Shown in pieces: positions 42,787 through 60,140 of a stretch of DNA of 64,000 nucleotides. Numbering within the stretch: position 1 is the first letter of the stretch; every line of letters begins with the position of its first letter. The notes under the pieces are model-generated. The model was not told the DNA's origin and ran no database searches. It saw only the letters and a list, made by a program, of their open reading frames with translations. Origin of the DNA: Nisaea sediminum (GTDB lineage: Bacteria; Pseudomonadota; Alphaproteobacteria; Thalassobaculales; Thalassobaculaceae); contig NZ_JACZCQ010000007.1 of assembly GCF_014904705.1 (NCBI RefSeq), positions 1 through 64,000 on the forward strand, given 5' to 3'. The translations under genes were made by a program, and so were the position numbers.

Positions 42787-43599
42787 ATGCGCGTCTCGAT
42801 CTCAAATATCGCTTGGAATAGAGAAGAATTTGACCGGATGCTAGACGTTGTCTCCGAAGCAGGAGGCGATGCGATCGAACTGGCGCCCAACTCGATCTGG
42901 CAGGAGCCGATCAAGTCAAGCCCTAAGGAACGAAAAGAGTTCATGAACCGGGTTTCCCGGGCAGGCCTTGATGTTTCCGGGTTCCACGCCTTGCTTTTCA
43001 CCCGCCCGGATCTTGCTCTGTTCCGGGACAAAGCCTCCAGCCGGGAGTATGCGGACTACCTGATCGCGCTCGGTAATCTCGCCGTTGATCTCGAGGCCGG
43101 CGCAATGGTTCTCGGTTCACCCAGAAACCGTGCTCGCGGTTCGCTGGGCCTGGACGAAGCCTGGTCATGGGCAGTCGAGAGCTTCAGGTATGTCGCCGAG
43201 GAACTTGAAAAGGCCGGTGAGGTCGATCTGTGTATCGAACCGCTCGCACCTTCGGAAACGGACTTCATTTCCTCCGTCGCAGAGGGATGGGATCTCGCCG
43301 CAGCCGTGGACCATAAGAGATTCGGTCTGCTCATCGACACCAAGGCCGTGTTCGAGAGTGAGGCGGATCCGCTCGGCACGATCTCCGGTTTCGGGGCCAG
43401 GGCGCGCCATTTTCATATCTCGAACCCGGGGCTCGGACCGGTTTACAACGGCGAGATCGATCATGCGGCTGTCGGTAAAGCGCTTCGAGGCGCAGGGTAC
43501 AAGCGCTATGTTACGATCGAGATGAGGCGCCTCGAGGCGCCGAACGAAGCGCATGTTCGGAAAGCCCTTCAGTATGCGAAAAGCAGTTACCTGTCGTAA
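42787..43599 (+). CDS. Sugar phosphate isomerase/epimerase-like TIM barrel
   Basis: 270-residue AP-endonuclease-2/xylose-isomerase-like barrel. MRVSISNIAWNREEFDRML, GGDAIELAPNSIW, LDVSGFHALLF and the metal-binding glutamate/histidine strands VDLCIEPLAPSET, LLIDTKA and HISNPGLGP..YVTIEMRR are in the expected order. Such enzymes isomerise keto-/aldo-sugars or act as dehydratases. The start has GGGAG just upstream. It is the first gene of the + strand cluster that includes two B12-type radical SAM enzymes, so it probably supplies or remodels a sugar precursor; substrate unknown. Confidence 0.8.
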   Translation: MRVSISNIAWNREEFDRMLDVVSEAGGDAIELAPNSIWQEPIKSSPKERKEFMNRVSRAGLDVSGFHALLFTRPDLALFRDKASSREYADYLIALGNLAVDLEAGAMVLGSPRNRARGSLGLDEAWSWAVESFRYVAEELEKAGEVDLCIEPLAPSETDFISSVAEGWDLAAAVDHKRFGLLIDTKAVFESEADPLGTISGFGARARHFHISNPGLGPVYNGEIDHAAVGKALRGAGYKRYVTIEMRRLEAPNEAHVRKALQYAKSSYLS

Positions 43600-43672
43600 C
43601 GGCAATTGAAGTAGACAGGGGTCCGGGTTCCGACGCTTCGGCGTTTCCGGGCAGCAAGCAGTAGGGAATGTA

Positions 43673-45307
43673 ATGGCGAACGCAATAAGACGGAAAAAAT
43701 ATTCAGATTTCAAAGTTCTCTTTGTTTATCCGAATATCCAGATGTCGTCGCTCGCTCCTCAGGGCATCGGCTATCTGTCGGCGATGCTGAAGCAGGAAGG
43801 CATGCAGGTCGAGCTGTTCGACAGCACGTTCTATCTGAATCAGCTGACCGGCGACGCGAACAACGAGAAGGTCTACCTCTCGATGGTGCGCCCGTTCAGC
43901 TGGGAAGAGCGCGGTATCCGGCCGAAGACAACCAACATGCTCGACGACTTCAACAAGATGGTCGAGGAGTTCGAGCCGGATCTGCTCGCTTTCTCCGTCG
44001 TCGAGAACACATGGTATCTCGCCGACGAGATGATGCGCGGCCTGCGGACACGCGTCCCGACCGTTGTCGGAGGGGTGTTCCCGACCTATGCGCCGGAAAT
44101 CGTTATTTCCCACCCGAAGGTGGACTACATCTGCCGCGGCGAGGGTGAGGTCGCCCTGAGCGAGCTTTGCCGAGCGCTCGCTGACGGCGAGGACACGACC
44201 CGGATTCAGAATCTCTGGGTCAAGGAGGATGGGACGGTTCACAAGAACCGGGTTGGACTCGGCATCAAGCTAGACGACCTGCCGTTCCCGGACTGGACCA
44301 TCTTCGAGGAGCAGAGCCTGTTCCGTCCGATGCAGGGCCGTGTCTACAAGACCATCGGGGTCGAGACCCAGCGTGGGTGTCCCTACAAGTGCACCTTCTG
44401 CAATTCCCCGGCGAACAACGACATCTATAAGGAAGAAAGCGGCTCGGTCTTCTATCGCAAGAAGTCGGTCGAACGTGTCCACGCCGAGCTCGAATACATG
44501 CGCAAGACGCAAAACCCCGAATTCATCTATTTCGTGGTTGATACCTTCCTCGCCCTGGGCGATCGCGAATTCGCCGAATTTTCGGAGATGTACCAGGACT
44601 TCAAGGTTCCGTTCTGGATGAATACCCGCGCCGAGACGATGAACGATTGGCGCTCTGATGAACTCGAGAAAATGAACTGTCTGCGTATCAATATCGGCGT
44701 CGAGCACGGGAACCCCGATTATCGCGCCAATATGCTGAAGCGACCGGTGAGCAACGAGCGGATGCTGACGGCGTTCGAGAGTGCGGCGGGACGGAGCTTC
44801 ACCACGGTTGCGAACTCGATTATCGGTATGCCGGACGAGACGCGCGACCTGGTTTTCGACACAGTCGAGTTCAATCGCCAGCTGCCCTCCGACATTGAAG
44901 CTTCCGGCGCGTTCATCTTCACGCCCTATCATGGCACCACGTTGCGCAATATCGCGGTGCAGAAGGGGTATGTCGAAGACGGTGTGGTCTGTTCCCTCGG
45001 CACGACGCGAGGCAGCATCATTAATATGCCGTGGCTCTCGACCGAGGAGATTCAGGGGCTCTGCCGGGTCTTCAGCTTCTACGTCAAGTTCCCGAAGGAG
45101 CGTTGGCCGGAGATCAAGGAAGCCGAGAAACTGACCGACAAGGGCAACGCCAAGTTCGAGGCTTTGAGGGACGAGTTCGTCGCGACGTATCGTCGGTCCG
45201 ACGTCAATCCCAAGGACGTCAGCAGCTATGACCTAGTCCTGAATGGTGAGGACGATTGGAAAAAGGCGGAAAGAAAATCCGGCGATATGTACGCGGACCT
45301 GCATTGA
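43673..45307 (+). CDS. B12-binding domain radical SAM protein
   Basis: 544 residues. The N-terminal ~160 residues match the cobalamin-binding domain (VLFVYPNIQMSSLAPQGIGYLS; VVGGVFPTYAPE; YICRGEGE), though without the DxHxxG lower-ligand motif of methionine synthase. The radical SAM core begins at ETQRGCPYKCTFC, with Cys236, Cys240 and Cys243 binding the 4Fe-4S cluster. Similar proteins methylate unreactive carbon or phosphorus centres or close rings (BchE/HpnR type). The C-terminal ~170 residues are not assigned. Lies 73 bases after the TIM-barrel gene. Substrate unknown. Confidence 0.88.
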   Translation: MANAIRRKKYSDFKVLFVYPNIQMSSLAPQGIGYLSAMLKQEGMQVELFDSTFYLNQLTGDANNEKVYLSMVRPFSWEERGIRPKTTNMLDDFNKMVEEFEPDLLAFSVVENTWYLADEMMRGLRTRVPTVVGGVFPTYAPEIVISHPKVDYICRGEGEVALSELCRALADGEDTTRIQNLWVKEDGTVHKNRVGLGIKLDDLPFPDWTIFEEQSLFRPMQGRVYKTIGVETQRGCPYKCTFCNSPANNDIYKEESGSVFYRKKSVERVHAELEYMRKTQNPEFIYFVVDTFLALGDREFAEFSEMYQDFKVPFWMNTRAETMNDWRSDELEKMNCLRINIGVEHGNPDYRANMLKRPVSNERMLTAFESAAGRSFTTVANSIIGMPDETRDLVFDTVEFNRQLPSDIEASGAFIFTPYHGTTLRNIAVQKGYVEDGVVCSLGTTRGSIINMPWLSTEEIQGLCRVFSFYVKFPKERWPEIKEAEKLTDKGNAKFEALRDEFVATYRRSDVNPKDVSSYDLVLNGEDDWKKAERKSGDMYADLH

Positions 45308-45366
45308 GGTCACGTATATCGTCTCTCGCGATCTCCTGATGGACCCTTTCGATTGCAGGTGAACTG

Positions 45367-46077
45367 ATGCGGTACGGAATTCTGGCGGAATTCTCGGGTG
45401 AACTGAGTCTCGAATACATTGCGGAGAGCCTCGACCGGAACCTCGTTCCCGATTTTATAGTGTTTTGCGGCTCGGAGAGCGATCCGGAACGCGAGCGGCT
45501 CGTCGCGGAACGAACGGAGGGACGGTACCGGCGCAAGGTGCTCTCGAAGATCGAGGGTATCGAGAAAATCCCCGCCTACTTCGTTCCGGAATTGAATTCC
45601 GAGGTTACCCTTGATGTTATCAAGGGCCTGTCTCCGGACCTGCTCGTCTCGGGCGCGACCAAGATCATCAAGATTCCGATCTGGGATCACGTGCGGCTCG
45701 GGGCCCTCAATTGTCACTCCGGGTACATCCAGGAATTCCGCGGATGTTCCTGCGTCGAATGGGCCATTCTTAAGCAGCGCCCGGTCGGTGCGACAGTGCA
45801 TCTACTGAATCAGCGGATCGATGCAGGGCCGGTCGTTGTCCAGAAGGTCATGGAGATCAAGAAGGGCGAAACCTATCCCGCCGTCCGCACGAACATGATC
45901 TATCACCAGGCCCGGCTGATGATCGATGCCGTCGAGATGGCGATGAGAAACCCGGAAGACTTCCACCAGGACGTTGAACTCGGGGACTATTACAAGCCGA
46001 TGCGGGATCTCGAACTCGTCCGGGACGTCGAGGGTATCCTGAAGGAAGAGAAGTACCAGCATTACGCTGCGGTCTGA
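45367..46077 (+). CDS. Formyltransferase-fold protein
   Basis: 236 residues containing the catalytic set of 10-formyltetrahydrofolate-dependent transferases: Asn115 and His117 in LNCHSGYIQEFRG and Asp152 in QRIDAGPVV. This is the Fmt/PurN/ArnA-type core. The N-terminal ~90 residues are shorter and divergent. It is too short for methionyl-tRNA formyltransferase and lacks its C-terminal tRNA domain. Next to an aminotransferase gene, the likely role is N-formylation of a new amino group on a sugar or small molecule. Starts at ATG 45367, 59 bases after the radical SAM gene. Confidence 0.82.
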   Translation: MRYGILAEFSGELSLEYIAESLDRNLVPDFIVFCGSESDPERERLVAERTEGRYRRKVLSKIEGIEKIPAYFVPELNSEVTLDVIKGLSPDLLVSGATKIIKIPIWDHVRLGALNCHSGYIQEFRGCSCVEWAILKQRPVGATVHLLNQRIDAGPVVVQKVMEIKKGETYPAVRTNMIYHQARLMIDAVEMAMRNPEDFHQDVELGDYYKPMRDLELVRDVEGILKEEKYQHYAAV

Positions 46078-46208
46078 GGCCGAGGTGCGCGCCGCCTCCG
46101 GCTCAACCCTGCGGAAACAAATTGTCGTGAATTTTGCCGTCTCCGGGTGAAGCTATTGTGCTCGGGCCGGAACCTGGCCGGACACCGGTTAAGTTGGGAG
46201 ACCATAGA

Positions 46209-47279
46209 GTGAAGATCGCTCCGAAACCCTCAGTCGCATCCCTGGTGCGCTTCCCGCATGAGAAGAGCGACCGTCACGGCATGGTCCGGCTCGACCGGAA
46301 CGAACGCGCTGTGCCCTTCCCCGAAAAGGTGTGGTCGCGCTTTCAGGAGCTGCTCACCCAGGAAATGGTCCTGGCCTATCCGCAGACGGCCGAGCTTTTC
46401 CAGGCGATCGCGAACTATGTCGGCGTCGACGAGGATCGGATCGGACTGGCCAGCGGTTCGGACATCGCGATCCGGTCTGTCTATGAAGCCTACATTTCCA
46501 AAGGCGACCGCGTGGTCGTTCCCGATCCCTGCTATGCGATGTACAAGGTTTACGGCGAGCTTTTCGAGGCTGAAACCGTCGAGGTCCCGATCGAGGACGA
46601 TCTCGAGCTCGATCCCGAGCGGGTCCTCGATGCGCTGACTCCCGGGACACGGGCCGTCGTGATCGAGTTTCCGGGCGGGTTCGCGGGCACTAGCATGGCG
46701 ATCGAGGATGTCCTGCGGGTCGTTGCGCAGGCGCGCGAGATCGGCGCACTCGCCATCGTGGACGAGGCATACAGCGCCTTCAACGGGTACACGCTCGTGC
46801 CCTATGTCGATGAGTACGAGAACCTGATCGTTACCCGTTCCTGTTCCAAGGATCTCGGTGCGGCGGGGCTTCGCGTCGGATACACCGTGGCGTGCAGGGA
46901 AGTCACCGACATCCTGCGCCGTGTCCGGCCAATGCACGAGGTGACGAGTGCTTCTGCCTGCTTCATTCGCGCGGCGCTCGAATCCCCGGAACTGATCGAC
47001 GATTATGTCGAAACCATCCGGGCGAACATCCGCTACACACGAGACGCGCTTGCCCAGCTCGGCTACAGGACAGCCGGCGGCACCGGGAACTTCATCGTGG
47101 TGAAGTTCGACGACAACGAGTCGGTCAAGACGGTCATCGCCAGGCTCCAGGAGAAATCCATCCTCGTCCGGCGGCCGTTCGAGAGCGGCCGCATGAAGGG
47201 CTGGATGAGGGTCGGCATCGGCACGAAGCAGCAGATGTCGGAGTTTGTCGACGCACTGGCGACGGTGGTCTCGGGCTAA
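46209..47279 (+). CDS. PLP-dependent aminotransferase, HisC-like (class I/II)
   Basis: 356 residues of fold-type I. The PLP-lysine is in TRSCSKDLGAAGLRVGY (residue 214), the Asp binding the pyridine nitrogen in LAIVDEAYSAF (~185), and the C-terminal carboxylate-binding Arg in GWMRVGIG. Overall layout follows histidinol-phosphate aminotransferase, but no his genes are around. It may aminate a keto-sugar, a keto acid or a phosphonate; substrate unknown. The GTG start at 46209 has GGGAG 9 bases upstream and yields a family-like N-terminus; the frame runs further upstream to 46134. Follows the formyltransferase by 131 bases. Confidence 0.82.
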   Translation: MKIAPKPSVASLVRFPHEKSDRHGMVRLDRNERAVPFPEKVWSRFQELLTQEMVLAYPQTAELFQAIANYVGVDEDRIGLASGSDIAIRSVYEAYISKGDRVVVPDPCYAMYKVYGELFEAETVEVPIEDDLELDPERVLDALTPGTRAVVIEFPGGFAGTSMAIEDVLRVVAQAREIGALAIVDEAYSAFNGYTLVPYVDEYENLIVTRSCSKDLGAAGLRVGYTVACREVTDILRRVRPMHEVTSASACFIRAALESPELIDDYVETIRANIRYTRDALAQLGYRTAGGTGNFIVVKFDDNESVKTVIARLQEKSILVRRPFESGRMKGWMRVGIGTKQQMSEFVDALATVVSG

Positions 47280-47309
47280 CCCCCCGCGGACCAGCCTTTC
47301 GGAGCAGCC

Positions 47310-48521
47310 ATGATATTCCTATTTGTGCGGCACTTGGTCGACCTCGATCATTTTACTCCGCTGGCATACGCTCTCGGCAAATCGGGCCGAAGAGCGGCGC
47401 TTGTCACCTATACTGCGAATATTCCCACCGATGATTTCCGGCTTAGCTTTCTGGAAACACAGGCTGGTGTCGAGGTCGTCCATTTGGCAGCTGACGAGGC
47501 TGGCCTGAACCCCAATCTCACCATAGACGAAATTTTTCAGATCTTCTCTAAGAGCGTCTTCGAGGAACTTTTCAACCCAGTCGAAGGGGCGGTTTTTGTC
47601 CATGAGCGGGAATGGAATGCGTTCACCGAGAGGCTGGAGCAGATCTCCCGTGAGCGTGGCGTCCCGATGATCTGCGCGCCCGCCTATGCGGAGACTTTTA
47701 TAAATTTCCTTCAGAGGTTCGACGTATTCGATCAGGGGCCGCTGAAGCGGGGCTATGCCGGCGTTGAGAACTTCCGGGCGGTGATATCGCCTGGCGGACC
47801 TATTGATGAGCGCTTGGAGAGATCATTCTGGCCGGGAAAGCGGGTGGTGTTAGGGTCGCCGCGCTTCAGTCTGGAGTGGATCGATGTGCTTCGAGACATC
47901 GCTCCGCCCGCAGTGATCGGCGGCAGGGAAGGTAACCTCCGGCTTGCGATTTTTATGCGAAACCGATTCTATCCCGTTTTCTGGAGCGAATTGTTCGCGG
48001 CGTTAAAACTGATGCTGCGGTTCCCCAATGTGTCGATAGCGATCGTGGGTCACATTCGGAAAGGGGACCGCAGCGCTTATTGGGATCCCCTCTTTGGAGA
48101 TGTCGAATTCCCTTTTCCCAGGGAGAAGTTTCAATTCGGCAAGAACAGCGAGATATTCGAGGTCGCCGAGGGTACGGCAGCGACGAGAGTTATGGAGTGG
48201 GCGGACTGTGTTCTGAACATGGGGACGAGTGTCGTGATGGAAGCTGTTGCGCTCAGGAAACCCGTTTTCTCACTCGATAACCTGCACAGCAACGTCACCG
48301 TCACGGCCCGTTATCTTCCGAGTACGCATATTGGCTGCCGCGACGATCTTCTGAAGGTCATGTTGGCGCTTGTGCGAAACCGGGAAAGCGCGATCGAACA
48401 ATTCTATGACACTGACCGTTGGACAAGCTTCGTGCGTGTCTTTCTCGGCGAGGGTGACGTTCTTGCGAGGTATTCAGATTACTTTGACGAAGCCCGGGTT
48501 GCCGCCATCGGCAAGGACTGA
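47310..48521 (+). CDS. GT-B-like protein of unknown function
   Basis: 403 residues. The N-terminal MIFLFVRHLVDLDHFTPLAYALG starts like a GT-B acceptor domain. The C-terminal VLNMGTSVVMEAVALRKPVFSL has the nucleotide-binding helix pattern of UDP-GlcNAc-epimerase/glycosyltransferase GT-B proteins. No family name is certain. GGAG lies 5 bases before the ATG. Context suggests a surface-glycan transferase. Its last third is slightly more AT-rich than the genes before it. A 505-base gap with a strong palindrome follows. Confidence 0.6.
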   Translation: MIFLFVRHLVDLDHFTPLAYALGKSGRRAALVTYTANIPTDDFRLSFLETQAGVEVVHLAADEAGLNPNLTIDEIFQIFSKSVFEELFNPVEGAVFVHEREWNAFTERLEQISRERGVPMICAPAYAETFINFLQRFDVFDQGPLKRGYAGVENFRAVISPGGPIDERLERSFWPGKRVVLGSPRFSLEWIDVLRDIAPPAVIGGREGNLRLAIFMRNRFYPVFWSELFAALKLMLRFPNVSIAIVGHIRKGDRSAYWDPLFGDVEFPFPREKFQFGKNSEIFEVAEGTAATRVMEWADCVLNMGTSVVMEAVALRKPVFSLDNLHSNVTVTARYLPSTHIGCRDDLLKVMLALVRNRESAIEQFYDTDRWTSFVRVFLGEGDVLARYSDYFDEARVAAIGKD

Positions 48522-49026
48522 CATTCCTCCAGCTACATCCGGTCTGGAGTACGGGACGCGCAGACTGGAGAGGTCGAGGATTTGCTGTTGCGGCAGTTCA
48601 CGAGGAGGTTGCTCAACAAGCTATCGCTTTTTTCAGGCTGGACACGCACAATAACAAGCCTGTTTGAGCTACGCTCCCAACACCCTGCCAAGCAATACGG
48701 GCGGCCAGCTACGCTATGCCGCCCGTATTGCTTGGACGAGGACCCGGCCATGTACCGACATGCAAATCGAATCAGGCAGATCAGGTTGCTCAAGAGGCGG
48801 CTGGAATAGGTCCGCAGATCGTTCGGGGCCGTTTCACCAGCCGTCATCTCCAATCGCTCGAAAAGCCACCGCCACGTTGATTTTTATAGCGGAATCGGAG
48901 ATGAGTGTTGCGGAATGGCTAGGCAATCCTGGAAATACAGGTTGATGGTCAGATAATTGGCTGTTGCGACCAAACAGGCTTCGACACCCGCATCAAGTCG
49001 TTCGGAAATAGAGGAAAAAAGGTCAA
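48522..49026. other. 505-base gap with a perfect inverted repeat
   Basis: No supported gene on either strand; the short frames have no family resemblance. It contains the palindrome at 48688-48735. The 3' part (about 48860-49026) is AT-rich and should contain the promoter of the next gene. Confidence 0.5.
48688..48735. repeat. Perfect 18-bp inverted repeat with 12-base loop
   Basis: CCAAGCAATACGGGCGGC at 48688-48705 is exactly complementary to 48718-48735. The loop contains AGCTACGCT (48707-48715), which is repeated directly at 48667-48675. There is no T-tract on either side, so it is not a standard terminator. It could be a mobile-element end, a REP-like element or an RNA attenuator. Confidence 0.8.
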
Positions 49027-50241
49027 ATGGATAATTCGAACAAATCTAGTGTCAATATATACGAATTTTTGTCTGAAGCCGCGGCCAAAAAAAACTACGG
49101 CAACATAGTTTCCGTAATTTTCTACAATCTCCAGAAATCCTTGAGCTTTATTGATAGGGTGCGCGAATTTCCGGGATCTCCATTGAAAGAGATCGCGCTC
49201 TCGATGTGCCTTATCGCCCAGGGAAAAATCGATTCCAGTCGTTCTCGGCTTCTTAGGGTCAAGGAAAAAGAATGGGAGCTACTTGTCAGCTACCTCATGA
49301 TCAAATGCTCGATCATCGACCATCGTTATGCAGACGCGGAGCTGATCTGCGATCGAATGATCGAACGTTATCCCTTGCATGACGACATCGATTTTGCGCT
49401 GGTCTTTTACCTGATCAAATCAACGCTTGCCACAATCCGGGGCGATGTGGACGGGGCGAATGCCTTGGCCCGCGAGTGGAGTGCCGTCAGGAACGGTCAT
49501 TGGTTCCGCTCAGCCAAGTCGGCCTTGGTCGAGAAGACCGGTGGCGACATTTATCAGGATAAGGGTATCGAGAGAGGCGCGTGGCTGGAGTATCAGAGAG
49601 ATATTTCCTCAAAGCACACAAAGACTCAGAATCCGTCAGTGTGGCTGCAGCATCTTTTCATCTACAACGTAGAAATGGAAATCAGGCAGGTCGAGAACGC
49701 CGACTGCTTCATCAATTATGGCGCCCTCTATGGCTGGATGGACCACCAGATCGCATCACGGTATCCGGAGATTCATGTCATCGGGTATGATCGTTCACTC
49801 GACGTGAAACAATGGAATGACAGGGTTTTTTCGGCTCCCAATCTGGAATATGCCTATGGCGATTTCGAAAAAATCCTCAAAGAGGCTTCCGAGAAATACA
49901 AGCGTATCGTTCTGGGGCATTGCCGAACCGTCACCTATCTTTCGGAATCAGAGTTGCTTTCCTTCTATCGTATGTGCGCAAGCAACAATGTAAAAGGTGT
50001 CGTCGCGATCGAAGGGTTGGGTTTCAGCTCTCTCACCAAAGAGTATTTCGACATCTCAAAAGATCGTTCTGTCTTCAAGCTCGACTCGAAAGCAAACTAC
50101 CTGCACAATTGCGGAACTTATCTTGAGGAGTGCGGATACAGAGTCTCTTATACGGACTCTGAGATCACACCGACGATCAATCGTTTTAAACCTACAGAAG
50201 GTAATATCTACAATATTACCTGGCGCGGGGAACTTTCGTAA
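49027..50241 (+). CDS. Unknown protein, helical repeats plus methyltransferase-like C-terminus
   Basis: 404 residues not assigned to a family. The N-terminal ~160 residues are helical and repeat-like (LMIKCSIIDHRYADAELICDRM, DGANALAREWSAVR), as in TPR-type scaffolds. The C-terminal half (FINYGALYGWMDHQIASR; EIHVIGYDRSLD; YAYGDFEKIL; IVLGHCRTVTYL) has alternating strands and helices compatible with a Rossmann-like AdoMet methyltransferase, but no glycine-rich motif I is evident. Visibly more AT-rich, with more ATA and AAA codons than the neighbours, suggesting recent acquisition. AGAGGAAAAAAGG precedes the ATG. Confidence 0.55.
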   Translation: MDNSNKSSVNIYEFLSEAAAKKNYGNIVSVIFYNLQKSLSFIDRVREFPGSPLKEIALSMCLIAQGKIDSSRSRLLRVKEKEWELLVSYLMIKCSIIDHRYADAELICDRMIERYPLHDDIDFALVFYLIKSTLATIRGDVDGANALAREWSAVRNGHWFRSAKSALVEKTGGDIYQDKGIERGAWLEYQRDISSKHTKTQNPSVWLQHLFIYNVEMEIRQVENADCFINYGALYGWMDHQIASRYPEIHVIGYDRSLDVKQWNDRVFSAPNLEYAYGDFEKILKEASEKYKRIVLGHCRTVTYLSESELLSFYRMCASNNVKGVVAIEGLGFSSLTKEYFDISKDRSVFKLDSKANYLHNCGTYLEECGYRVSYTDSEITPTINRFKPTEGNIYNITWRGELS

Positions 50242-50472
50242 ACCTCAAGCCAAGTGGAGCAGGCAGCCGGCAGGAACCGCTGGCCGCATCTGGTGACTGC
50301 GCCACTGCATGCTCTCGCGGCCGTCCCGATCCTTATCCCGGAAGCCTGACTCCATCATCTGATAGGCGTTCGTCCGGCATCTGGTAAATGGCTTATCCGG
50401 CTGGAAAAGCCGCATGCGTTCGTGATAACAGGTGCATTCGCAGATCGCAGCAGGCGGAAAGAAAATATCGCG

Positions 50473-51516
50473 ATGAAAGTGCTGGTGCTTGGGAACTTGG
50501 GATACATCGGGCCCGTTGTCGTCGATGAGCTCGGCTCCAGGCATCCTGATATGGAGATCGTTGGGTTCGATACGGGATTGTTCAAGGAGTGTGTGGTCGA
50601 TCCTGAGCACGATTTTGGGGCCAGGCTTGATCACCAGATCTTTGGAGACGTTCGCGATCTGACGGCGGAATTGTTCTCTGGTGTCGATGCCGCGATCTAC
50701 CTGTCCGCGCTCTCCAATGATCCGATCGGCAACGCATTCGAAGCCCTGACTGACGAGATCAATGCGGGCAGCGCGGTGCGCGCGGCCGAAGCCGCCAAAG
50801 CGGCAGGCGTGAAACATTTCGTCTTCGCCTCGAGTTGTTCCGTCTATGGAGCCGGTGGTGAGGAAGCGAAGACGGAGGAGTCCTCGCTCGCGCCGCAAAC
50901 GGCTTATGCGCGCTCCAAGATCGCGGCGGAAAAGGCCCTGGCTTCCATGGCGGACGACAGTTTCGTCATCACCTGCCTGCGTTTTGCGACGGCGTGCGGT
51001 TTCAGCCCGCACCTGCGTCTGGATCTCGTGCTGAACGATTTTGTCGCCACTGCGTTGAGCCACAGGAAGATCGACGTGCTTTCGGACGGTAGACCCTGGC
51101 GCCCTCTAATTCACGTCAAGGACATGGCGCGCGCCATGGAATGGGCATTGCAACGCTCTAGCGCGCAAGGCGGAGCTTTCCTGGCGATGAACACCGGAGC
51201 GGATACGGCGAACTATCAGATCCGGGATCTGGCGGCAGCTGTGGCCCGTAACCTTGGTGACGTCGCGGTGGCCATCAATGAAAACGCGTCGCCGGATACG
51301 CGATCCTATCGCGTCGATTTTGGCCTGTTCCGGAAACTGGCTCCCGCACACCAGCCCCGTATGATGCTGCAGGACATGGTTGGCGATCTGGTGGGCAATC
51401 TCAATCGAATCGGCTTCAAGGATCCGGATTTCCGCTCGGGCAACCTGATTCGTCTGAACTACATCAAGGATCTGGTCGCGAAGGGCGCTCTCGACGGCAC
51501 CCTTCGCTGGCAGTAG
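50473..51516 (+). CDS. NAD-dependent epimerase/dehydratase, SDR family
   Basis: 347-residue extended SDR: VLVLGNLGYIGPVVVDEL (G-x2-G-x2-G), AIYLSALSNDPIG, FASSCSVYGAGG and YARSKIAAEKAL (Y-x3-K) are intact. It resembles the nucleoside-diphosphate-sugar epimerase group, with a C-terminal substrate domain (RPWRPLIHVKDMARAM). Exact sugar unknown. ATG 50473 is chosen by family alignment; GGAAAGAAAA upstream is a weak site. It follows a 231-base gap with no gene. The next gene, a methyltransferase, starts 42 bases on. Confidence 0.85.
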   Translation: MKVLVLGNLGYIGPVVVDELGSRHPDMEIVGFDTGLFKECVVDPEHDFGARLDHQIFGDVRDLTAELFSGVDAAIYLSALSNDPIGNAFEALTDEINAGSAVRAAEAAKAAGVKHFVFASSCSVYGAGGEEAKTEESSLAPQTAYARSKIAAEKALASMADDSFVITCLRFATACGFSPHLRLDLVLNDFVATALSHRKIDVLSDGRPWRPLIHVKDMARAMEWALQRSSAQGGAFLAMNTGADTANYQIRDLAAAVARNLGDVAVAINENASPDTRSYRVDFGLFRKLAPAHQPRMMLQDMVGDLVGNLNRIGFKDPDFRSGNLIRLNYIKDLVAKGALDGTLRWQ

Positions 51517-51558
51517 TCCTGACAAACCACAATAGAATTTTATCCGCAGAGAGGAAGC

Positions 51559-52509
51559 ATGGTCGATTTTGATGATGAAGCGAAAGCCTTCGATCAGAGA
51601 ATCATGGATCGAACGGAACACGGGTTCATCGCTGACCTGCGGCGCGTCCAGCCAAACGAATATTTCTACAAGAGCTTCTGGCGACACCCGCACTATACGG
51701 ACCTTTTTCTCGGCGAGATGTTCCGGAACTATGTGAAGGTCCTGGAAGAGCATGTTGCGCAGGGCGCCCGCGTGCTCGATCTTGGCTGTGGGGCAGGGTA
51801 CTTCTCCCTTGAGCTCGCCCGGCTCGGATACCATGTTGTCGGAGTCGATATTTCCGCTAAATGTATAGAGACTGCCCGCCAGATACTGGAGCAAAACCCC
51901 TACAAGGACGGCTTCGGCAGTGTGGAATATGCCGAGGGATCCTATACTCTCGTCAGAGATCTCGGTCAGTTCGATGCGGTCCTCTGTTCCGGGTTCCTGC
52001 ATCATATCCCCGACCTCGATGAAGTTATCTCCATCATCGACGCGGCGCTCGTGTCGGGCGGGATGCTGATCTGGCACGAACCGTCTCACAAGAGCTGGAC
52101 GCCCGCAGACGCCGCGTTCGTTGCCGCTATCCGGCTCATACTCGCTGAGGCCGGTTTGTGGTATGACGAAACTATTCTGAGAGACCTCGACAGCGCGAAG
52201 CTCATGGAACTGGTCGCTGGAACCCAGGAAGAATATGTCCTTGAACGCGATCCTCATGAAGCTGGGGGGCAATCGCCGAACGATCTGTCTTGGGATGGTA
52301 ACGAGATTACCCAGAGAGTGGCGGGGAAACTCGAATTGTTGATGACGAAACCTAGTGTTTCCTTTATCTACAGGGTTCTTGGGGGCATGCGCGGCGACCA
52401 GGAAAAACTTAACAGAATCGCATCTCTGTTGACCCTGATCGACAGGACCTACCTGGATGAGGGGATATTGAACGCCAATTACTTCTATGGCGTTGCGCGC
52501 AAAACTTGA
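51559..52509 (+). CDS. Class I SAM-dependent methyltransferase
   Basis: 316 residues with a classic Rossmann-fold AdoMet site: GARVLDLGCGAGYFSLELAR (motif I), HVVGVDIS (acidic residue of motif II) and FDAVLCSGFLHHIPDLDEVI (motif IV). The N-terminal ~70 and C-terminal ~110 residues are probably substrate-specific. Likely methylates O or N of a sugar or small molecule. Strong GAGAGGAAGC site; 32 bases before the probable start of the MiaB-like gene. Confidence 0.85.
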   Translation: MVDFDDEAKAFDQRIMDRTEHGFIADLRRVQPNEYFYKSFWRHPHYTDLFLGEMFRNYVKVLEEHVAQGARVLDLGCGAGYFSLELARLGYHVVGVDISAKCIETARQILEQNPYKDGFGSVEYAEGSYTLVRDLGQFDAVLCSGFLHHIPDLDEVISIIDAALVSGGMLIWHEPSHKSWTPADAAFVAAIRLILAEAGLWYDETILRDLDSAKLMELVAGTQEEYVLERDPHEAGGQSPNDLSWDGNEITQRVAGKLELLMTKPSVSFIYRVLGGMRGDQEKLNRIASLLTLIDRTYLDEGILNANYFYGVARKT

Positions 52510-52541
52510 GTGTGTCTTGCCTAGCACTGCCGGAGAGACCA

Positions 52542-53732
52542 TTGAAGATCTACATCACCGAAGACGACATGTGCACGACTCAGAAGCTCAACCTGGCACG
52601 GGTCCAGCGATGGCTTGAAGCGAACGGTGCAACGATTGTCGATGAAGAGGCTGAGGCTGATCGGCTGATCTGCATGACCTGCAATGGCTGGTCCCTGCTT
52701 GAGCAGGCGTCCTACGACCGGATCAATAAATACAAGGACGACTTCAAGGATCGGATGATTGTGCTGGGATGCGTTGTCGACGCGCATCCCAGGAACGTTG
52801 CCGAGCTGTATAACGGGCCGGCAGTCGGAACGAAGGGTACCAGACCGCTATCGTTTGGTGGCATCGAGGAGCTGTTTCCGGAGTTTGCTATTCCTCTGGA
52901 AGACATTCCCGCGCAATCGATCTTCAGGAGGAAGGAAGACTACCGCGACTACAATCTTTCGAAGCGCTTCATCAACATCGCAGAGGGCTGCGCCTTCAAC
53001 TGTTCTTTCTGCACACACAAGCCCGGCCTCGGCAATCGCCGCAGCCGGCCGCTCGACGACATCATGAAACAGATCGAGCAATGCGTGAAGGAAGACGTCA
53101 GGGTGGTGAACCTGATGGGCATGGAAACCGCGCTCTACGGCATGGACGTCGGCTCGTCCTATCCCGAAATGCTGCGCGCCGTTCTCGAGTACGATGAATC
53201 CTATGAGGTTCATGTCGCCCAGTTCCAGCCGCAGGGCATCTTCCGCTACTACGACGAGTTGCTGGAGCTGTTCTCGAACAGGCGCGTTACCGATATCCAG
53301 GTGCCGATCCAGTCCGTTTCCGCGCGGATCATGAAGATGATGAACCGGCGCGAGCACTCCGATCGCGTCGGCCCCTTCATGAAGAAGCTGCGTGCTGCGA
53401 ATCCACGCGTCGTGCTGCGCACGGACCTTATTATCGGCTGGCCGACCGAGACAGTCGAAGAGCGCATGGCTTCACTTGATTTTGCCGGCGCACATTTCGA
53501 TGAGATCTCCCTCTACACCATCGAACTGAGCCCCGATCTGCCCGCGTGGAAATACCAGCCCGATGCCTTCGGTACAGCTGAACTCGACGAGATCCGGAGA
53601 ACGTCGCGCGATTACCTCAACGCGAACTACAATGTCGTCGTCTCGACGGGCCAGCAGGAAGATTCCTCGATGAAGGACGCCGAACTGAAGCGCATCCAGT
53701 TGCGTGAGCGGCGCATGAAGGAAGCGGTCTGA
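52542..53732 (+). CDS. MiaB/RimO-like radical SAM protein without TRAM domain
   Basis: 396 residues. The N-terminal UPF0004-type domain retains three cysteines for an auxiliary 4Fe-4S cluster: DDMCTTQKLN (Cys11), ICMTCNGW (Cys47, with Cys44 next to it) and IVLGCVVD (Cys77). The radical SAM core is EGCAFNCSFCTHKPG (Cys150, 154, 157). This is methylthiotransferase architecture, but the C-terminal TRAM RNA-binding domain of MiaB is missing. The substrate is therefore probably not tRNA and may be a sugar or small molecule. Start is TTG 52542 with GGAGAG upstream; TTG 52506, overlapping the preceding stop, is an alternative. Confidence 0.82.
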   Translation: MKIYITEDDMCTTQKLNLARVQRWLEANGATIVDEEAEADRLICMTCNGWSLLEQASYDRINKYKDDFKDRMIVLGCVVDAHPRNVAELYNGPAVGTKGTRPLSFGGIEELFPEFAIPLEDIPAQSIFRRKEDYRDYNLSKRFINIAEGCAFNCSFCTHKPGLGNRRSRPLDDIMKQIEQCVKEDVRVVNLMGMETALYGMDVGSSYPEMLRAVLEYDESYEVHVAQFQPQGIFRYYDELLELFSNRRVTDIQVPIQSVSARIMKMMNRREHSDRVGPFMKKLRAANPRVVLRTDLIIGWPTETVEERMASLDFAGAHFDEISLYTIELSPDLPAWKYQPDAFGTAELDEIRRTSRDYLNANYNVVVSTGQQEDSSMKDAELKRIQLRERRMKEAV

Positions 53733-53803
53733 TGATCTAGATATCCCACTCGAACTGATTTGAGCGATCAACCTGATTTACGAATGCGAGTGGAATATCT
53801 GAA

Positions 53804-54808
53804 ATGACTGCCGACCGCGAAATCACTGCCGGTGACTATTCGGTATTGATCGTCAATTCTCATCCGAGAGAGACGCTCCTGAAGCAGATACGGTCGCTGC
53901 GGTCGCAGGGATTCGAAGGACAGATCGTCGTGACAGACGGCCGCAACGAGCCTTTTGACGATAGCTCCGAGCTCTACACGAATGTCGTCGTCGTCCACAT
54001 TCCCCTTGTGAGTCAGGATCTCGAATCCCGGGCCGGGAACTTCTTCGAGAGAATTTACAAGGGCGTTCTGGCGCTGGAATCAGAGCGGATAGTTCTATGT
54101 CCGTCCGACGACCTGATGGATCTTGAAGCTGTACGTATGGCCTTTGCTTTTCTCGATCGCGACAGTTCCTTTGCCACGTGCGCGATGAACTCCATCCGGG
54201 TCCAAGGGGCCGCGGCACGCCGCTACCGGCAGATCCCCGTTACTCAGGAACACTGGACTGATCGCATTTCATTCCACGCAATCGGCGGCAGCTCTTTTTT
54301 CTGGGCCGCCCACAGAAAGAGCATCCTGAGCCGGACCCTCAGATTCATCACCGAGCTGAATTTTCCGGCACACGCTCACTGCGAGCACCTTTTTCACTTC
54401 CTCATTCTGCTGCAGGGGAAAGTCAACGTCATAGACAAGCTTGGCATCGTCAAAGATTTCTTCGACGACAGCCTGCCGCAAACCGGACAGGAGGGTATCC
54501 ACGACATTTACTCAAAGGTCTATTGGGAAATCCTGCTTTCCGGAAGCGAAAGAACCGCGCAATCCATCGGCCGCTTCCTGCCTGAAATCGGCCTGGGCTC
54601 GGAGACCGACCGGGTTATCGACTTTGTGCTCAAATACCACATTGGATTTGGCGCTCTGCGTATCGACCGCTTCGACACGCACCACATCAATGACAAGAGA
54701 GCGCGCTTTCAGTATTTCGAAAGCATGGTAAAAAGCCCGAGTATTGAAGATCTTATGAAACAGTTCAGATCACTGGTTCCGAAGGTCTCGCAGATGCGTT
54801 CTCACTGA
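53804..54808 (+). CDS. Glycosyltransferase-like protein (TIGR00180 type)
   Basis: 334 residues. The start YSVLIVNSHPRETLLKQIRSL with IVVTDGRNEP and LCPSDDLMDLEAVRMAF looks like a GT-A-type fold with a putative metal motif (SDDL). The second half (GSSFFWAAHRKSILSRTLRF; HAHCEHLFHFLILLQGKVNVID) fits proteins of the TIGR00180 family, found in polysaccharide loci with no confirmed activity. No membrane helix. ATG 53804 has a poor ribosome-binding site. A 371-base gap follows. Confidence 0.6.
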   Translation: MTADREITAGDYSVLIVNSHPRETLLKQIRSLRSQGFEGQIVVTDGRNEPFDDSSELYTNVVVVHIPLVSQDLESRAGNFFERIYKGVLALESERIVLCPSDDLMDLEAVRMAFAFLDRDSSFATCAMNSIRVQGAAARRYRQIPVTQEHWTDRISFHAIGGSSFFWAAHRKSILSRTLRFITELNFPAHAHCEHLFHFLILLQGKVNVIDKLGIVKDFFDDSLPQTGQEGIHDIYSKVYWEILLSGSERTAQSIGRFLPEIGLGSETDRVIDFVLKYHIGFGALRIDRFDTHHINDKRARFQYFESMVKSPSIEDLMKQFRSLVPKVSQMRSH

Positions 54809-55179
54809 CCGAGCGACGCCGAGTCTAACTCATCGTATCCAATGGGGAAATTAGAGGTCGCGCCCCGGACGTCCACGGTCGCAGGTTTTTTGCATCCTTG
54901 AAACAGGCGAGCCGCCCGGAACAGATCTGACACGGCGCCTGTTCGGTCAGCTTCGGCCTCGGGTGGAGGCTGGTCGTGCCCTTGACTCGGATCATAACAG
55001 CGCGATCAAACTTCCACACCGGCCCAATACACTGTACGGTAGTACAGTCATGGTGAGATATTGGGCTCGGAAATTCTATTTTCCTCTTAATTTGTGTGTG
55101 AACTTCGGAAAATAGACTGGTTTTCTGTGTCCTTCTATTTACTGTCAGGCATCCGACCAGGGGCTGAAGGAACCAGCGC
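54809..55179. other. 371-base gap before the second B12-type radical SAM gene
   Basis: No supported gene. Contains the CTGT-N8-ACAG palindrome at 55031-55048 and a few short frames without family resemblance. AAGGA about 8 bases before 55180 is the ribosome-binding site of the next gene. Confidence 0.5.
55031..55048. promoter_or_regulatory. Palindromic operator candidate ACTGTACGGTAGTACAGT
   Basis: Perfect 7-bp arms with a four-base centre. It matches the enterobacterial LexA pattern CTGT-N8-ACAG exactly, but alphaproteobacterial LexA uses GTTC-N7-GTTC, so another regulator is likely. Located 131 bases before the radical SAM start. Confidence 0.45.
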
Positions 55180-57294
55180 ATGCGAAGTGACCGGAAACCA
55201 GTACTCATTTATCTGGCTGATCCCATCCACACATATATCCAGACGAAGAGCTCATGGTTTATCCCGCTGAGCGTCTTGAATATTCAAGCCTATCTGGAAT
55301 CGAAGTTCGGAAGTTCTGTCGAAGTTCACAGCTTCAAATATCCCGAAAGAATAATCGACGCCATTGACAGGCGGGCGCCTGATTTTGTTGGTGTATCCAA
55401 CTATATTTGGAACCGTCACGTAGGCGCCGGCATTTTACGTCATGCCCGGTCACGGAATTCGCAGGTCGTCACTGTAATGGGCGGCCCCAATGTGACTCTT
55501 ACCCGGGGTTACATGCAGCAGTTCCTCCAGACAGAAGACGTGGACTTCTATGTTCCGGACAATGTGATCGGTGGCGAGCAGCCTTTCGCCAGTCTGATTG
55601 CGGCCCATCTTGCCGGTTTCCCTCGTCTGCAGGATTGCGACGACGTTCATGGAGTTTGGTACCTTGACCCCGCGACAAACGGCGCTGTCGAGGTTCCGGC
55701 GCGCATCTCCGAGAAAACCCTGGACTGGCTGCCATCGCCATTTCAGGCGGGACTCGCCGATCCCTTCCTTGAGGAGGGGTTGGGAGCGATGATCGAAACC
55801 AACAGGGGCTGTCCGTTCCATTGTACATTCTGCGTATGGGGCAACGGATCGAAAGTGGTCCAGTTCAGTACGGAACGCGTTAAGAAAGACCTCGAACGTT
55901 GTGCCGCGAAAGCCACGCGCGAACTTCTGATGATCAACGACGCCAATTTCGGACTGTTCAAGAATCGCGATCTCGAGGTTGCGCGAGAGATCAGGAGACT
56001 CAAAGAGACGGTCGGCTGGCCCATGTCAGTGTTCGTGAACTGGGGGCAGGTCCGTTCAGAAAGCGCGATCAAGGTTGCCGAGGAACTGAAAGGCATTACG
56101 CTGCTGCGACAATCATCGCAATCCATGAACACCACTGTACTGGAAACCATCAAGCGTGACAGCGTGCCCGATTTCCAGTGGCGCTATGTCGTCGACGAAT
56201 GCAAGAAGGCCGGGATCGAATCCTACTCCGAGGTCATTGTCATGCTGCCCGGCGAGGACCTGACCTCATATCTCGATGGACTCCGCTTCTTCTTCGATAT
56301 CGGGATCGACTGCATCAGCACCAACCAGTGCCAGCTGCTGCACGGTGCCGAACTCAACACGCCCCAGTCCCGGGAAAAGTTTGAAATGAGGACTGCTTGG
56401 CGTCTCCTTGAGGGCGCCTACGGCGAATATGCCGGCGAACGCTATCTGGAGGCAGAAGAAATCGTCATCGGCAATTCAACATTCTCGGAGGCCGAGAATC
56501 TGAAAGTCAGGAAGATGAACTGGCTGATCCAGATGAGTTGGACGCTCAAACGGCATGATGTCATTTTCAAAATCTTCCAGGAACATGACGTCAACCCGGT
56601 CGATTTGTTCTTCAAATGCGCCCAGCATCGTGCGGATGGCGTGGCAGCTTTGGCGAACGAGAAGATCACGGAGCTTTTTGACAGATTCGATCGAGATGCC
56701 GAAAGTGAGCTCTTCGATTCGTACGAAGACCTGTGTAATTTCTATACGTCCGACAAGGAATTCAAAGATCTCTCGGAAAATGGTTTCAAAAAACTGAACA
56801 CCTTCTATTCCGGCTTGGCCTTGGCAATCAATGAAGATTTGATTGACTATTATATCGCGGCGGGAAAAAGCCTTCTCAAGGAAACCGTCAATATCGACGA
56901 AGTCAATGAGATGCTTTCAGAGGGCAAGCGCTTCCTGATGAACCGATGCATTGCACCGGAGGACCTGCTGAATATGGAGAAATTCGAGAATTCAGACAGG
57001 ACCGGGCAATTTCAGTATGATTTCACCGGTTGGCTTGAATCTCCTGAGAGCCGAAAATTGACGAATTTCCGACTCGGGAATAGCGAAACATTAATTTTCT
57101 ACGCAGATCCGGAGCAGAGTGAGGCAATCGGGCGTTTTGTCGGCAATATGTCTCACAAATCGAAAGACTATATCCTCAAGAAGCTTTGCGAACCCTTCTA
57201 TGGCGTAAAAAAAGAGTATCTGAATTTTCGCGTTTCCAAGCTATTGGAGGCAGGAATTCGGAAAGCAGAGCTCGAGAACGCGACAGCTCTATGA
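55180..57294 (+). CDS. B12-binding domain radical SAM protein, long form
   Basis: 704 residues. The N-terminal ~200 residues are B12-binding-like (VLIYLADPIHTYIQTKS; GVSNYIWNRHVGAGIL; VTVMGGPNVTLTRGY). The radical SAM cluster is in NRGCPFHCTFCVWGNG (Cys211, 215, 218), followed by a full barrel to about residue 420. The remaining ~280 residues are predicted helical and unassigned, with clusters of acidic and aromatic residues (FDSYEDLCNFYTSDKEFKDL). Probably catalyses a radical methylation, cyclisation or C-C rearrangement of the cluster's product. AT-richer than the flanks, especially in the last third. Confidence 0.85.
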   Translation: MRSDRKPVLIYLADPIHTYIQTKSSWFIPLSVLNIQAYLESKFGSSVEVHSFKYPERIIDAIDRRAPDFVGVSNYIWNRHVGAGILRHARSRNSQVVTVMGGPNVTLTRGYMQQFLQTEDVDFYVPDNVIGGEQPFASLIAAHLAGFPRLQDCDDVHGVWYLDPATNGAVEVPARISEKTLDWLPSPFQAGLADPFLEEGLGAMIETNRGCPFHCTFCVWGNGSKVVQFSTERVKKDLERCAAKATRELLMINDANFGLFKNRDLEVAREIRRLKETVGWPMSVFVNWGQVRSESAIKVAEELKGITLLRQSSQSMNTTVLETIKRDSVPDFQWRYVVDECKKAGIESYSEVIVMLPGEDLTSYLDGLRFFFDIGIDCISTNQCQLLHGAELNTPQSREKFEMRTAWRLLEGAYGEYAGERYLEAEEIVIGNSTFSEAENLKVRKMNWLIQMSWTLKRHDVIFKIFQEHDVNPVDLFFKCAQHRADGVAALANEKITELFDRFDRDAESELFDSYEDLCNFYTSDKEFKDLSENGFKKLNTFYSGLALAINEDLIDYYIAAGKSLLKETVNIDEVNEMLSEGKRFLMNRCIAPEDLLNMEKFENSDRTGQFQYDFTGWLESPESRKLTNFRLGNSETLIFYADPEQSEAIGRFVGNMSHKSKDYILKKLCEPFYGVKKEYLNFRVSKLLEAGIRKAELENATAL

Positions 57295-57431: not shown

Positions 57432-57530
57432 GGGGTCTGGTTCGGATACCGGTGGGTTCGCGTGTTCTTGTTCCGGGAGGGCCGGGAGGCGAACCGCGAG
57501 CGGGTGCGCCGCCTTTGGATGGGGCGGGTC
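57432..57530 (+). pseudogene. Decayed IS3-family transposase (OrfB) fragment
   Basis: A + strand frame encodes a run beginning at about 57432 in which GYR, V-x-V, REG, NR-x-RV and RRLW line up with the start of the catalytic region of IS3/IS407 OrfB (typical GYRRVHVLLRREGW then NRKRVRRLY). About 17 of 26 positions agree. The rest of the element, its ends and the DDE residues are absent, so it is a relic. It sits exactly between the + strand radical SAM cluster and the - strand CDP-sugar operon. Confidence 0.65.
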
Positions 57531-58104
57531 AAAAGGCGGGAAGCATATCCGCGGCGCCCAGTTTGCGAAGCTCTGCGAAGCGAGGCAGGTTTCGGTCCTT
57601 CTCGGAAATCATGATCGGAGGAAAGGGCCATTCGATGCCGATCTCCTCGTCGCACCAGAGGACACCGCTGGATGCATCCGGGTTGAAATCAGCGGATATG
57701 TGATAGTTGATTGTGCTGTCGTCTTCGAGTGTCATGAAGCCGTGGGCGCAGCCCCTCGGGGCATAGACAGACAGCCTGTTGTCGACAGAAAGCTCGATCG
57801 CAAAATGTGCTCCGAATGCCGGAGACGTCGTCCGCAGGTCTACGACGACGTCGAATATTCGACCGCGTTCGCACCGTACCAGCTTGGTTTCCGAAAAAGT
57901 GCCCCTCTGGAAATGCGGCCCGCGTAGGGTACCCCTGTTGCGATTGCTGGAGCTGCTGATCTGGCGCCAACATGTCTCAAGGCCCTGTTCGGCAAATTCG
58001 GCGTGACTGAAGGTCCGCGAGAAAGCCCCTCTCTCGTCGACAAAGGCCGTTGTGTCGACGATCCACGCGCCGGGGATATTCGTCGCTTCGAAGGTCACGC
58101 TCAC
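57529..58104 (-). CDS. dTDP-4-dehydrorhamnose 3,5-epimerase family protein
   Basis: 191-residue RfbC-like cupin epimerase. The catalytic His is in GTLRGPHFQRGTFSETKLVR (Pro replaces the usual Leu before the His), and the Tyr lies in CAHGFMTLEDDSTINYHISA. WCDEEIGIEWPFPPIMIS closes the domain. The gene starts at GTG 58104 and overlaps the preceding methyltransferase stop in GTGA. Placed with rfbF and a C-methyltransferase, it more likely epimerises a CDP-linked keto-sugar than dTDP-rhamnose, which has its own RfbC at 30490. Confidence 0.85.
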   Translation of the reverse strand: MSVTFEATNIPGAWIVDTTAFVDERGAFSRTFSHAEFAEQGLETCWRQISSSSNRNRGTLRGPHFQRGTFSETKLVRCERGRIFDVVVDLRTTSPAFGAHFAIELSVDNRLSVYAPRGCAHGFMTLEDDSTINYHISADFNPDASSGVLWCDEEIGIEWPFPPIMISEKDRNLPRFAELRKLGAADMLPAF

Positions 58105-59327: not shown

Positions 59328-59363
59328 GAATCAGAGCCTTCGTCGGAAAACGAGAGAGAAGGA

Positions 59364-60140
59364 TTACCACGTCTTCCAAGGAACATTGTCGGATGCCCAC
59401 AGGGAACGCAGCCAGTCCACGTCCCTTTGCGTATCCATGCATCCCCAAAAATCGTCGTGGCGGTAGATCATCATTTCGCCGATGCGCGCAAGTTCTTCAA
59501 ACGCGCCCATCTCCAGATCGCAATCCTCGTCTGCTGTCAGATAGTCGAATATCCGCCTGTCGAAGACGAAAAAGCCACCATTGATATAGTCCCGGGGCTT
59601 GTCCGGCTTCTCGGCAAAACGAAGAACGCGGTCGCCGTCGATCTTCAATTCTCCGAAGCGCGCAGCAGGATTAACGCCGGTCACGGTGGCGATCTTTCCG
59701 TGCGCCTTGTGGAAAGCGATCAGCTTTGTGACGTCGACATTCGATAGACCATCTCCGTATGTTGCAACGAAGCAATCGCCTTCGATGTATTTCTCAATCC
59801 TCTTGATCCGGCCGCCCTTCAGGGTCGTCGCTCCGGTATTTGCAAGGGTAATTAACCAATCCGACTCGTCATGCTGATCGTGCTTGGTGATGATGCCGCC
59901 TTTTCCCAGTTCGAGCGTCACATCACAGTTCTGGAGTTCGTAATCCAGAAAATAATGTTTGATTACGTCGCCTTTGTACCCAAGGACCAAAATGAAGTCC
60001 TTGATGCCGTGTACGCTGTAATGCTTCATGATGTGCCAGAGGACCGGGTGCTCACCGATCGACACCATAGGTTTCGGACGGAATTCTGTTTCCTCACGCA
60101 TCCGGGTGCCCAGTCCGCCGCACAGTATGACTGCCTGCAT
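59364..60140 (-). CDS. rfbF: Glucose-1-phosphate cytidylyltransferase
   Basis: 258-residue nucleotidyltransferase that makes CDP-glucose, the entry to CDP-deoxyhexoses. LCGGLGTRMREETEFRPKPM is the CTP loop; VLWHIMKHYSVHGIKDFI, VATYGDGLSNVDV, INGGFFVFDRRIFDYL and FWGCMDTQRDVDWL are diagnostic of RfbF. First gene of the - strand CDP-sugar set. The usual partner, CDP-glucose 4,6-dehydratase (rfbG), is not seen. Confidence 0.95.
   Translation of the reverse strand: MQAVILCGGLGTRMREETEFRPKPMVSIGEHPVLWHIMKHYSVHGIKDFILVLGYKGDVIKHYFLDYELQNCDVTLELGKGGIITKHDQHDESDWLITLANTGATTLKGGRIKRIEKYIEGDCFVATYGDGLSNVDVTKLIAFHKAHGKIATVTGVNPAARFGELKIDGDRVLRFAEKPDKPRDYINGGFFVFDRRIFDYLTADEDCDLEMGAFEELARIGEMMIYRHDDFWGCMDTQRDVDWLRSLWASDNVPWKTW

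Follow-up and report, generated by a model that had tools for sequence, protein, structure and literature searches.

What is made by a gene cluster in which three proteins are radical S-adenosylmethionine (SAM) enzymes? The question is raised by a stretch of Nisaea sediminum DNA (bases 1–64,000 of contig C7, NZ_JACZCQ010000007.1; hereafter the window), in which an initial annotation had singled out eleven plus-strand genes at 42787–57294 (here g01–g11) as one collinear cluster for a highly modified sugar of a surface glycan, or for a separate small molecule. The eleven open reading frames (ORFs) lie where they had been placed or close by, and the families named for them are found: AP_endonuc_2 in g01, B12-type radical SAM in g02 and g11, Formyl_trans_N in g03, an aminotransferase in g04, a short-chain dehydrogenase/reductase (SDR) in g07, a methyltransferase in g08 and UPF0004 in g09. 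The CxxxCxxC motif is retained in g02, g09 and g11, and the whole genome has 20 Radical_SAM matches. These genes are part of a larger insertion, and the reading that we favour, with slightly better than even confidence, is that of an acquired glycan island: its core would make a branched hexose linked to cytidine diphosphate (CDP), which g08 and g09 would decorate and to which other genes would add on.

The limits of the insertion are seen in comparison with other genomes of the genus.

Genomic island: contig bases 42,689 to ~65,782 (23.1 kb; right end beyond the window), recognised by an empty site in relatives and a deviating G+C content.

In the alignment with G019 (a genome of the same genus, probably Nisaea; Alphaproteobacteria, Thalassobaculaceae), similarity stops at 42,688 and restarts at 65,783 of the contig, with 29 bp between the two sides in G019. 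The distance from the asparaginase II gene (40,974–42,035) to rlmN (C7:67,830–69,044) is 25.8 kb here and 2.7–3.9 kb in four other genomes of the genus; in all four, the SpoU-type methylase region found left of the island adjoins the ChrR-cupin gene found right of it. The G+C content is 0.565 inside the island versus 0.656 and 0.653 on its two sides. g01–g11 fill the left two thirds, and the minus-strand genes from 57,529 to ~65,782 (those at 57,529–63,645 are called m0–m6) belong to the same insertion, so the range first delimited holds the plus-strand genes but is too short. A role of this horizontally acquired island in a surface glycan is part of the favoured reading and seems to us somewhat probable.

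Within this one genus, both sides of rlmN host different glycan islands (contig C7:42,689–65,782 here; in G019 a ~20-kb island at the opposite flank of the gene, G019:C7:21,700–41,200), and G016 has ~5.4 kb without backbone matches just past rlmN. The rlmN match in G016 (G016:C1:2,786,713–2,787,912) is reported with one TGA inside, which could be just the gene end.

It is a module of six genes, here spread over both strands, that recurs in other genomes.

m2, 59364..60140, minus strand: glucose-1-phosphate cytidylyltransferase (TIGR02623 318.7 bits, cut-off 300.25).
m1, 58101..59327, minus strand: nucleotide-sugar 3-C-methyltransferase (Methyltransf_13 + 23 + 14 architecture).
m0, 57529..58152, minus strand: RfbC-type 3,5-epimerase (dTDP_sugar_isom 187 bits; real start probably slightly inside).
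g07, 50473..51516, plus strand: extended SDR (Epimerase 127 bits; YxxxK at 162–166; start set from homologues).
g08, 51559..52509, plus strand: class I methyltransferase, the partner of g09.
g09, 52542..53732, plus strand: TRAM-less methylthiotransferase-like radical SAM protein (UPF0004 33.6 bits and Radical_SAM 71.4 bits, both above cut-off; start TTG, set from homologues).

The G019 island has all six in a single run on one strand (m2 87%, m1 80%, m0 65%, g07 65%, g08 62%, g09 76%), along with one distant relative of g10 (30%) and two of g05 (28% and 29%). Five are found on one 18.5-kb contig of G014, from another genus of the same family (g09 63%, g07 47%, g08 45%, m1 43%, m2 42%), where they adjoin integrase and transposase genes. 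On a 4.9-kb contig, Azospirillum griseum carries g09 (71%), g08 (43%) and g07 (40%); in A. cavernae (G086) m2 (42%) adjoins g09 (73%), with a g08 relative ~30 kb off; and G426, from another class of the same phylum, has g08 (43%) and g09 (39%) next to each other. Among the six carriers of g09, an intact g08 relative is on the same contig in five and adjacent in four. An O-methyltransferase gene lies beside g08 or g09 in four of the six (CmcI-type in G019, A. griseum and G426, TylF-type in G014); no CmcI/TylF-type gene is present next to g08–g09 in the window.

Three details of these loci are worth recording. The A. cavernae g08 relative (L055:1,636–2,546) is matched by two fragments that lie in different reading frames, and transposase-like ORFs are located a few kb from it. 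In G426, a gene for a B12-binding radical SAM protein (L082:918–2,369) is three genes from g08–g09, which parallels the position of g11 close to the pair in the window. The G019 island contains a 3-dehydroquinate synthase-like gene (L058:13,685–14,761, minus strand) together with 2-hydroxyacid dehydrogenase and Gfo/Idh genes, which hints at a second unusual sugar or a cyclitol.

A gene-neighbourhood search of the kind that the initial annotation had called for was made for its own set. A second genome with all eleven genes was not found among the sampled genomes under strict limits, the set being sought through g02 (own genome only among 36 of the family, E ≤ 1e-60; own plus three among 385 of the class, E ≤ 1e-50), g04 (own only among 61 relatives, E ≤ 1e-40), g09 (own included, 2/289 of the class, 3/36 of the family and, with a profile, 2/398 of the phylum) and g11; no genome-wide search was made with g01, g03, g05, g06, g07, g08 or g10. 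That g01–g11 form one pathway to a single small molecule or sugar, with the minus-strand genes unrelated, is improbable in our estimate. The genes do share a strand and one insertion, with gaps of 30–73 bp inside g01–g05 and 32–71 bp inside g07–g10; however, apart from the missing second genome, m0–m2 accompany g07–g09 in G019 and partly in G014 and A. cavernae, and the neighbours of g02 and g11 relatives are different genes, save for weak matches in one genome (G368). The claim of a single collinear cluster stands as to strand, but the genes are not one tight run, as gaps of 505, 231 and 371 bp occur around g06 and before g11. From the tight spacing, g01–g05 may be one unit; promoter-like and terminator-like sites are no commoner in the region than in shuffled sequence.

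The most unusual member of the recurring module is g09, whose closest solved relatives by sequence are MtaB, MiaB and RimO, which are also its top Foldseek matches (TM-scores ~0.5). We aligned 16 proteins, namely six g09 proteins from six genomes plus ten further UPF0004 proteins taken from four genomes (the ten carry no assignment to named clades, and the set excludes e-MtaB). All 16 keep six cluster cysteines (three N-terminal ones and CxxxCxxC), which supports the 'possibly thio' of the initial annotation, and in the tree the g09 proteins form a clade of their own, set apart from the other ten by a 100/100 branch. The TIGR00089 match of g09 reaches 168 bits (cut-off 251). A TRAM domain gave no match at E ≤ 1 in the four g09 proteins tested; a TRAM-type match was obtained for six out of six other UPF0004 proteins tested, five above the cut-off, with only 13 bits for the second UPF0004 protein of N. 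sediminum itself. A g09 profile (with two exact short peptides as patterns) found at least three loci in genome contigs. No relative was found in viral contigs, and in plasmids (searched with g02, g09, g11, g03, g04, g06 and g07) the best 15 of 99 records are at most 26.6% identical to g09, the annotated ones being MiaB or RimO.

Could g09 simply be one more methylthiotransferase for tRNA or the ribosome, a stray or third one brought along by the island? Its domains, UPF0004 and Radical_SAM, are those of the enzymes that modify tRNA and S12, and the available text of a paper on the family (PMC10702137), which describes four clades with TRAM as the third domain, names tRNA and S12 and no other known substrates. 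But the genome encodes two further UPF0004 proteins, g09 is without TRAM and in a separate clade, and it recurs with g08 and sugar genes across six genomes; we consider this explanation very unlikely and have dropped it. The g08–g09 pair recurs in two classes beside glycan-type genes, though not always beside the CDP module, and this favours a sugar or glycan as substrate over a role on tRNA. The two proteins may methylthiolate a sugar. Our more specific proposal, to which we give somewhat less than even confidence, is that g08–g09 are a pair dedicated to this reaction: the TRAM-less clade would transfer SCH3 to an unactivated carbon, either in a nucleotide sugar or in a glycan. Substrates of this class are not reported for the methylthiotransferase family. 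A full-text literature search, with subscription papers and preprints outside its scope, returned among the matches listed neither a methylthiotransferase acting on a sugar nor a paper on this gene set.

A different division of labour can be imagined, in which g09 inserts sulfur (as a thiol or thioether bridge, like lipoyl or biotin synthase) and g08 methylates it, or in which g09 is limited to C–H activation. We regard it as doubtful: g08 is indeed a steady methyltransferase partner of g09, and the auxiliary-cluster cysteines show only that a second cluster is likely, but MtaB, MiaB and RimO, the nearest relatives of g09, methylate on the cluster themselves according to the available text of PMC10702137.

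In the core of the module, residues 3–407 of m1 align with D-mycarose 3-C-methyltransferase (2.6e-84), TcaB9 is also matched, and the protein contains a YHEH motif, so that m1 has both the domain architecture of a 3-C-methyltransferase and a full-length match to a characterised one. This minus-strand gene, which had not been counted initially, gives the clearest support for the C-methyl group first suggested, and the idea that a heavily modified sugar is made for a surface glycan is supported, provided that the minus strand is included. On our best reading, the core would yield a 3-C-methyl sugar that is linked to CDP and destined for a surface glycan. CDP-vinelose of Azotobacter is another CDP-linked 3-C-methyl sugar.

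CDP-glucose 4,6-dehydratase (TIGR02622, cut-off 278) is above the cut-off in none of six genomes (m1 and m2 are present in N. sediminum, G019 and G014, m2 only in G086, and neither was found in G016 and G018); in a control, it is above the cut-off in one of 14 genomes. The classical CDP-6-deoxy pathway was dropped for this reason. g07 has the motifs SSCSVYG and YxxxK; the acid pair that follows the corresponding serine or threonine in 4,6-dehydratases is absent from it, and likewise, by eye, from m5. Among solved structures, g07 comes closest to 6vo6 (1.4e-19, a distant match), which we take to be Cj1427. Our best guess, by analogy, is that the 4-keto group would come from C4 oxidation without dehydration, as the available text of PMC10680097 describes for the nucleotide sugar of Cj1427 in Campylobacter heptose pathways.

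The following scheme can then be proposed for the island. m2 would make CDP-glucose; g07 (or m5) would give the 4-keto sugar without 4,6-dehydration and/or carry out the final reduction, g07 being the proposed C4 oxidoreductase; m0 would epimerise beside the keto group and m1 would place a methyl at C3. g08 and g09 would then decorate the sugar or the glycan carrying it. In g09, one SAM would methylate a sulfide on the auxiliary iron–sulfur cluster and a second SAM would yield the 5'-deoxyadenosyl radical, so that the methylthio group would pass to an unactivated carbon, and g08 would provide a further methyl group. Another C-methyl group might come from g11 and an amino or N-formylamino add-on from g01–g04, with g05 and g10 as putative transferases. 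The island borders, the gene families, the conserved cysteines, the separate clade of g09, its pairing with g08 and the recurrence of the module are shown; the substrates, the order of the steps and the methylthio transfer by g09 are all part of this proposal.

Several observations weigh against the scheme. The proposed origin of the 4-keto group is uncertain, as weak TIGR02622 matches (77–91 bits) occur in all six genomes, including one in the window at 31,075–32,058, outside the island. The tree program warns of long branches, and the joining of the g09 proteins with them may be false. The structure model of g09 is middling (pLDDT, the predicted local distance difference test, 68.7), and its fold matches can do no more than support what the sequence shows. 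The 27.8-kb contig of G426 has no m1, m2 or g07 match, and hence the substrate of g09 need not be a CDP-sugar. The enzyme activities and the glycan structure are predictions.

The other plus-strand genes fall outside the recurring module.

g01, 42787..43599, plus strand: TIM-barrel sugar isomerase/epimerase-like (AP_endonuc_2 95 bits).
g02, 43673..45307, plus strand: B12-type radical SAM protein (Radical_SAM 65 bits, B12-binding 54 bits; best solved relative AprD4).
g03, 45367..46077, plus strand: formyltransferase-like (Formyl_trans_N 47 bits; N115/H117/D152 present).
g04, 46134..47279, plus strand: HisC-like pyridoxal phosphate enzyme, class I/II (Aminotran_1_2 156 bits; hisC 223 bits, cut-off 277).
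g05, 47310..48521, plus strand: no Pfam match at E ≤ 0.01; the two distant relatives in the G019 island are given above.
g06, 49027..50241, plus strand: no Pfam match at E ≤ 0.01; G+C 0.477.
g10, 53804..54808, plus strand: probable glycosyltransferase (TIGR04440 45.6 bits, cut-off 70).
g11, 55180..57294, plus strand: B12-binding + Radical_SAM, related to TokK and CysS.

Since g02 is closest to AprD4 (phmmer) and the NCBIfam models nearest to it are PhpK, HpnJ and BchE (all far below cut-off), methylation and diol dehydration are both possible chemistries. Its relatives in three further genomes have other neighbours, with the exception of G368, where weak formyltransferase (28.7% over 87 amino acids), HAD and 2-hydroxyacid dehydrogenase matches are nearby; no relative was found in genome contigs. 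g11 is closest to TokK and CysS (both ~1e-31, the match spanning ~residues 44–408 of 704), and scores 147 bits with the NCBIfam KedN5 model NF033712 (cut-off 700). The g11 family is present in 18 out of 289 genomes of the class, own included (E ≤ 1e-40). Among 21 stretches around g11 relatives (20 from genomes, one from an A. oryzae plasmid), at least six have a further radical SAM match and two have an m2 relative (46–50%). The plasmid stretch (L031; Azospirillum oryzae, NZ_CP054615.1, 215,000–252,000) is a polysaccharide-type island with four annotated radical SAM genes, two carbamoyltransferases and three class I methyltransferases.

The N-formyl group suggested by the initial annotation is a candidate modification: in g03 the N-x-H and D residues of formyltransferases are all present, but the DegT match of g04 (26.7 bits, versus 156 and 223 for Aminotran_1_2 and HisC) does not make it a DegT-type aminotransferase. 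Nucleotide-sugar aminotransferases are usually of the DegT type. From the HisC-like character of g04 we infer that a small phosphorylated amino precursor would be a better fit for it than a nucleotide sugar. g01–g04 and g11 look like separate add-ons.

No PDB sequence matched g05 or g06 with an E-value below 0.2, and the structure model of g05 (pLDDT 39.6) is useless. g06, an orphan, has the lowest G+C among the island genes, with no relative in plasmids at E ≤ 1e-3. The 505-bp gap between g05 and g06 (48,522–49,026) holds a long imperfect inverted repeat with the core GGGCGGC...GCCGCCC, perhaps a remnant of a mobile element.

Beyond m0–m2, the minus strand of the island in the window encodes four more proteins.

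m3, 60462..61139, minus strand: Glucosamine_iso (6-phosphogluconolactonase/deaminase) family (108 bits).
m4, 61126..61893, minus strand: HAD phosphatase-like (the ORF overlaps m5; real start probably inside).
m5, 61787..62767, minus strand: second extended SDR (Epimerase 155 bits).
m6, 62707..63645, minus strand: 2-hydroxyacid dehydrogenase (2-Hacid_dh_C 170 bits).

Left of the island, a minus-strand gene beside aspS (35,040–37,727) shows repeat matches and two glycosyltransferase stretches; its protein is matched in the other genomes of the genus, save G018 (none over half the length). Another minus-strand gene (39,607–40,848) encodes a serralysin/RTX-like calcium-binding repeat protein, matched in three out of the four other genomes of the genus.

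If the favoured reading is true, radical methylthiolation extends beyond the translation machinery, and some alphaproteobacterial surface glycans bear methylthio sugars made by direct C–H chemistry; the contributions of m1 and g11 would give a sugar that bears C-methyl as well as S-methyl groups. g08–g09 are a small pair, found in environmental genera (Azospirillum and Nisaea), for which a precise mass can be predicted, and the TRAM-less methylthiotransferase is a handle for finding such loci elsewhere.

Parts of this island can be compared with known systems. m1 resembles the D-mycarose 3-C-methyltransferases of the MtmC/TylC3 type and TcaB9 over its full length and in the YHEH motif; the substrates of those enzymes are deoxysugars of antibiotics linked to thymidine diphosphate (dTDP), whereas that of m1 is likely a CDP-sugar. 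g11 matches the B12 radical SAM methylases TokK and CysS, but over only part of its length. g07 is only distantly related to Cj1427, which differs from it in acting on heptose linked to guanosine diphosphate (GDP). Plasmids of Paracoccus, Paroceanicella and Qingshengfaniella (Rhodobacterales) have annotated groups of rfbF-like, rfbC and g07-like genes (with a class I methyltransferase in two of the three); these groups share with the island the counterparts of m2, m0 and the g07-type SDR (51–53% for Paracoccus and Paroceanicella), but have no g08–g09 pair annotated. Among bacterial surface glycans, mycobacterial lipoarabinomannan is known to contain a methylthio sugar, 5-methylthioxylose; the available text of PMC11233589 shows no link of this sugar to a radical SAM methylthiotransferase, though no search aimed at its biosynthesis was made. 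MiaB, MtaB/e-MtaB and RimO share with g09 the N-terminal UPF0004 domain with three cysteines and the CxxxCxxC radical SAM domain; their substrates as reported in the available text of PMC10702137 are tRNA and S12, whereas g09, without TRAM and in its own clade, sits in glycan islands beside a methyltransferase.

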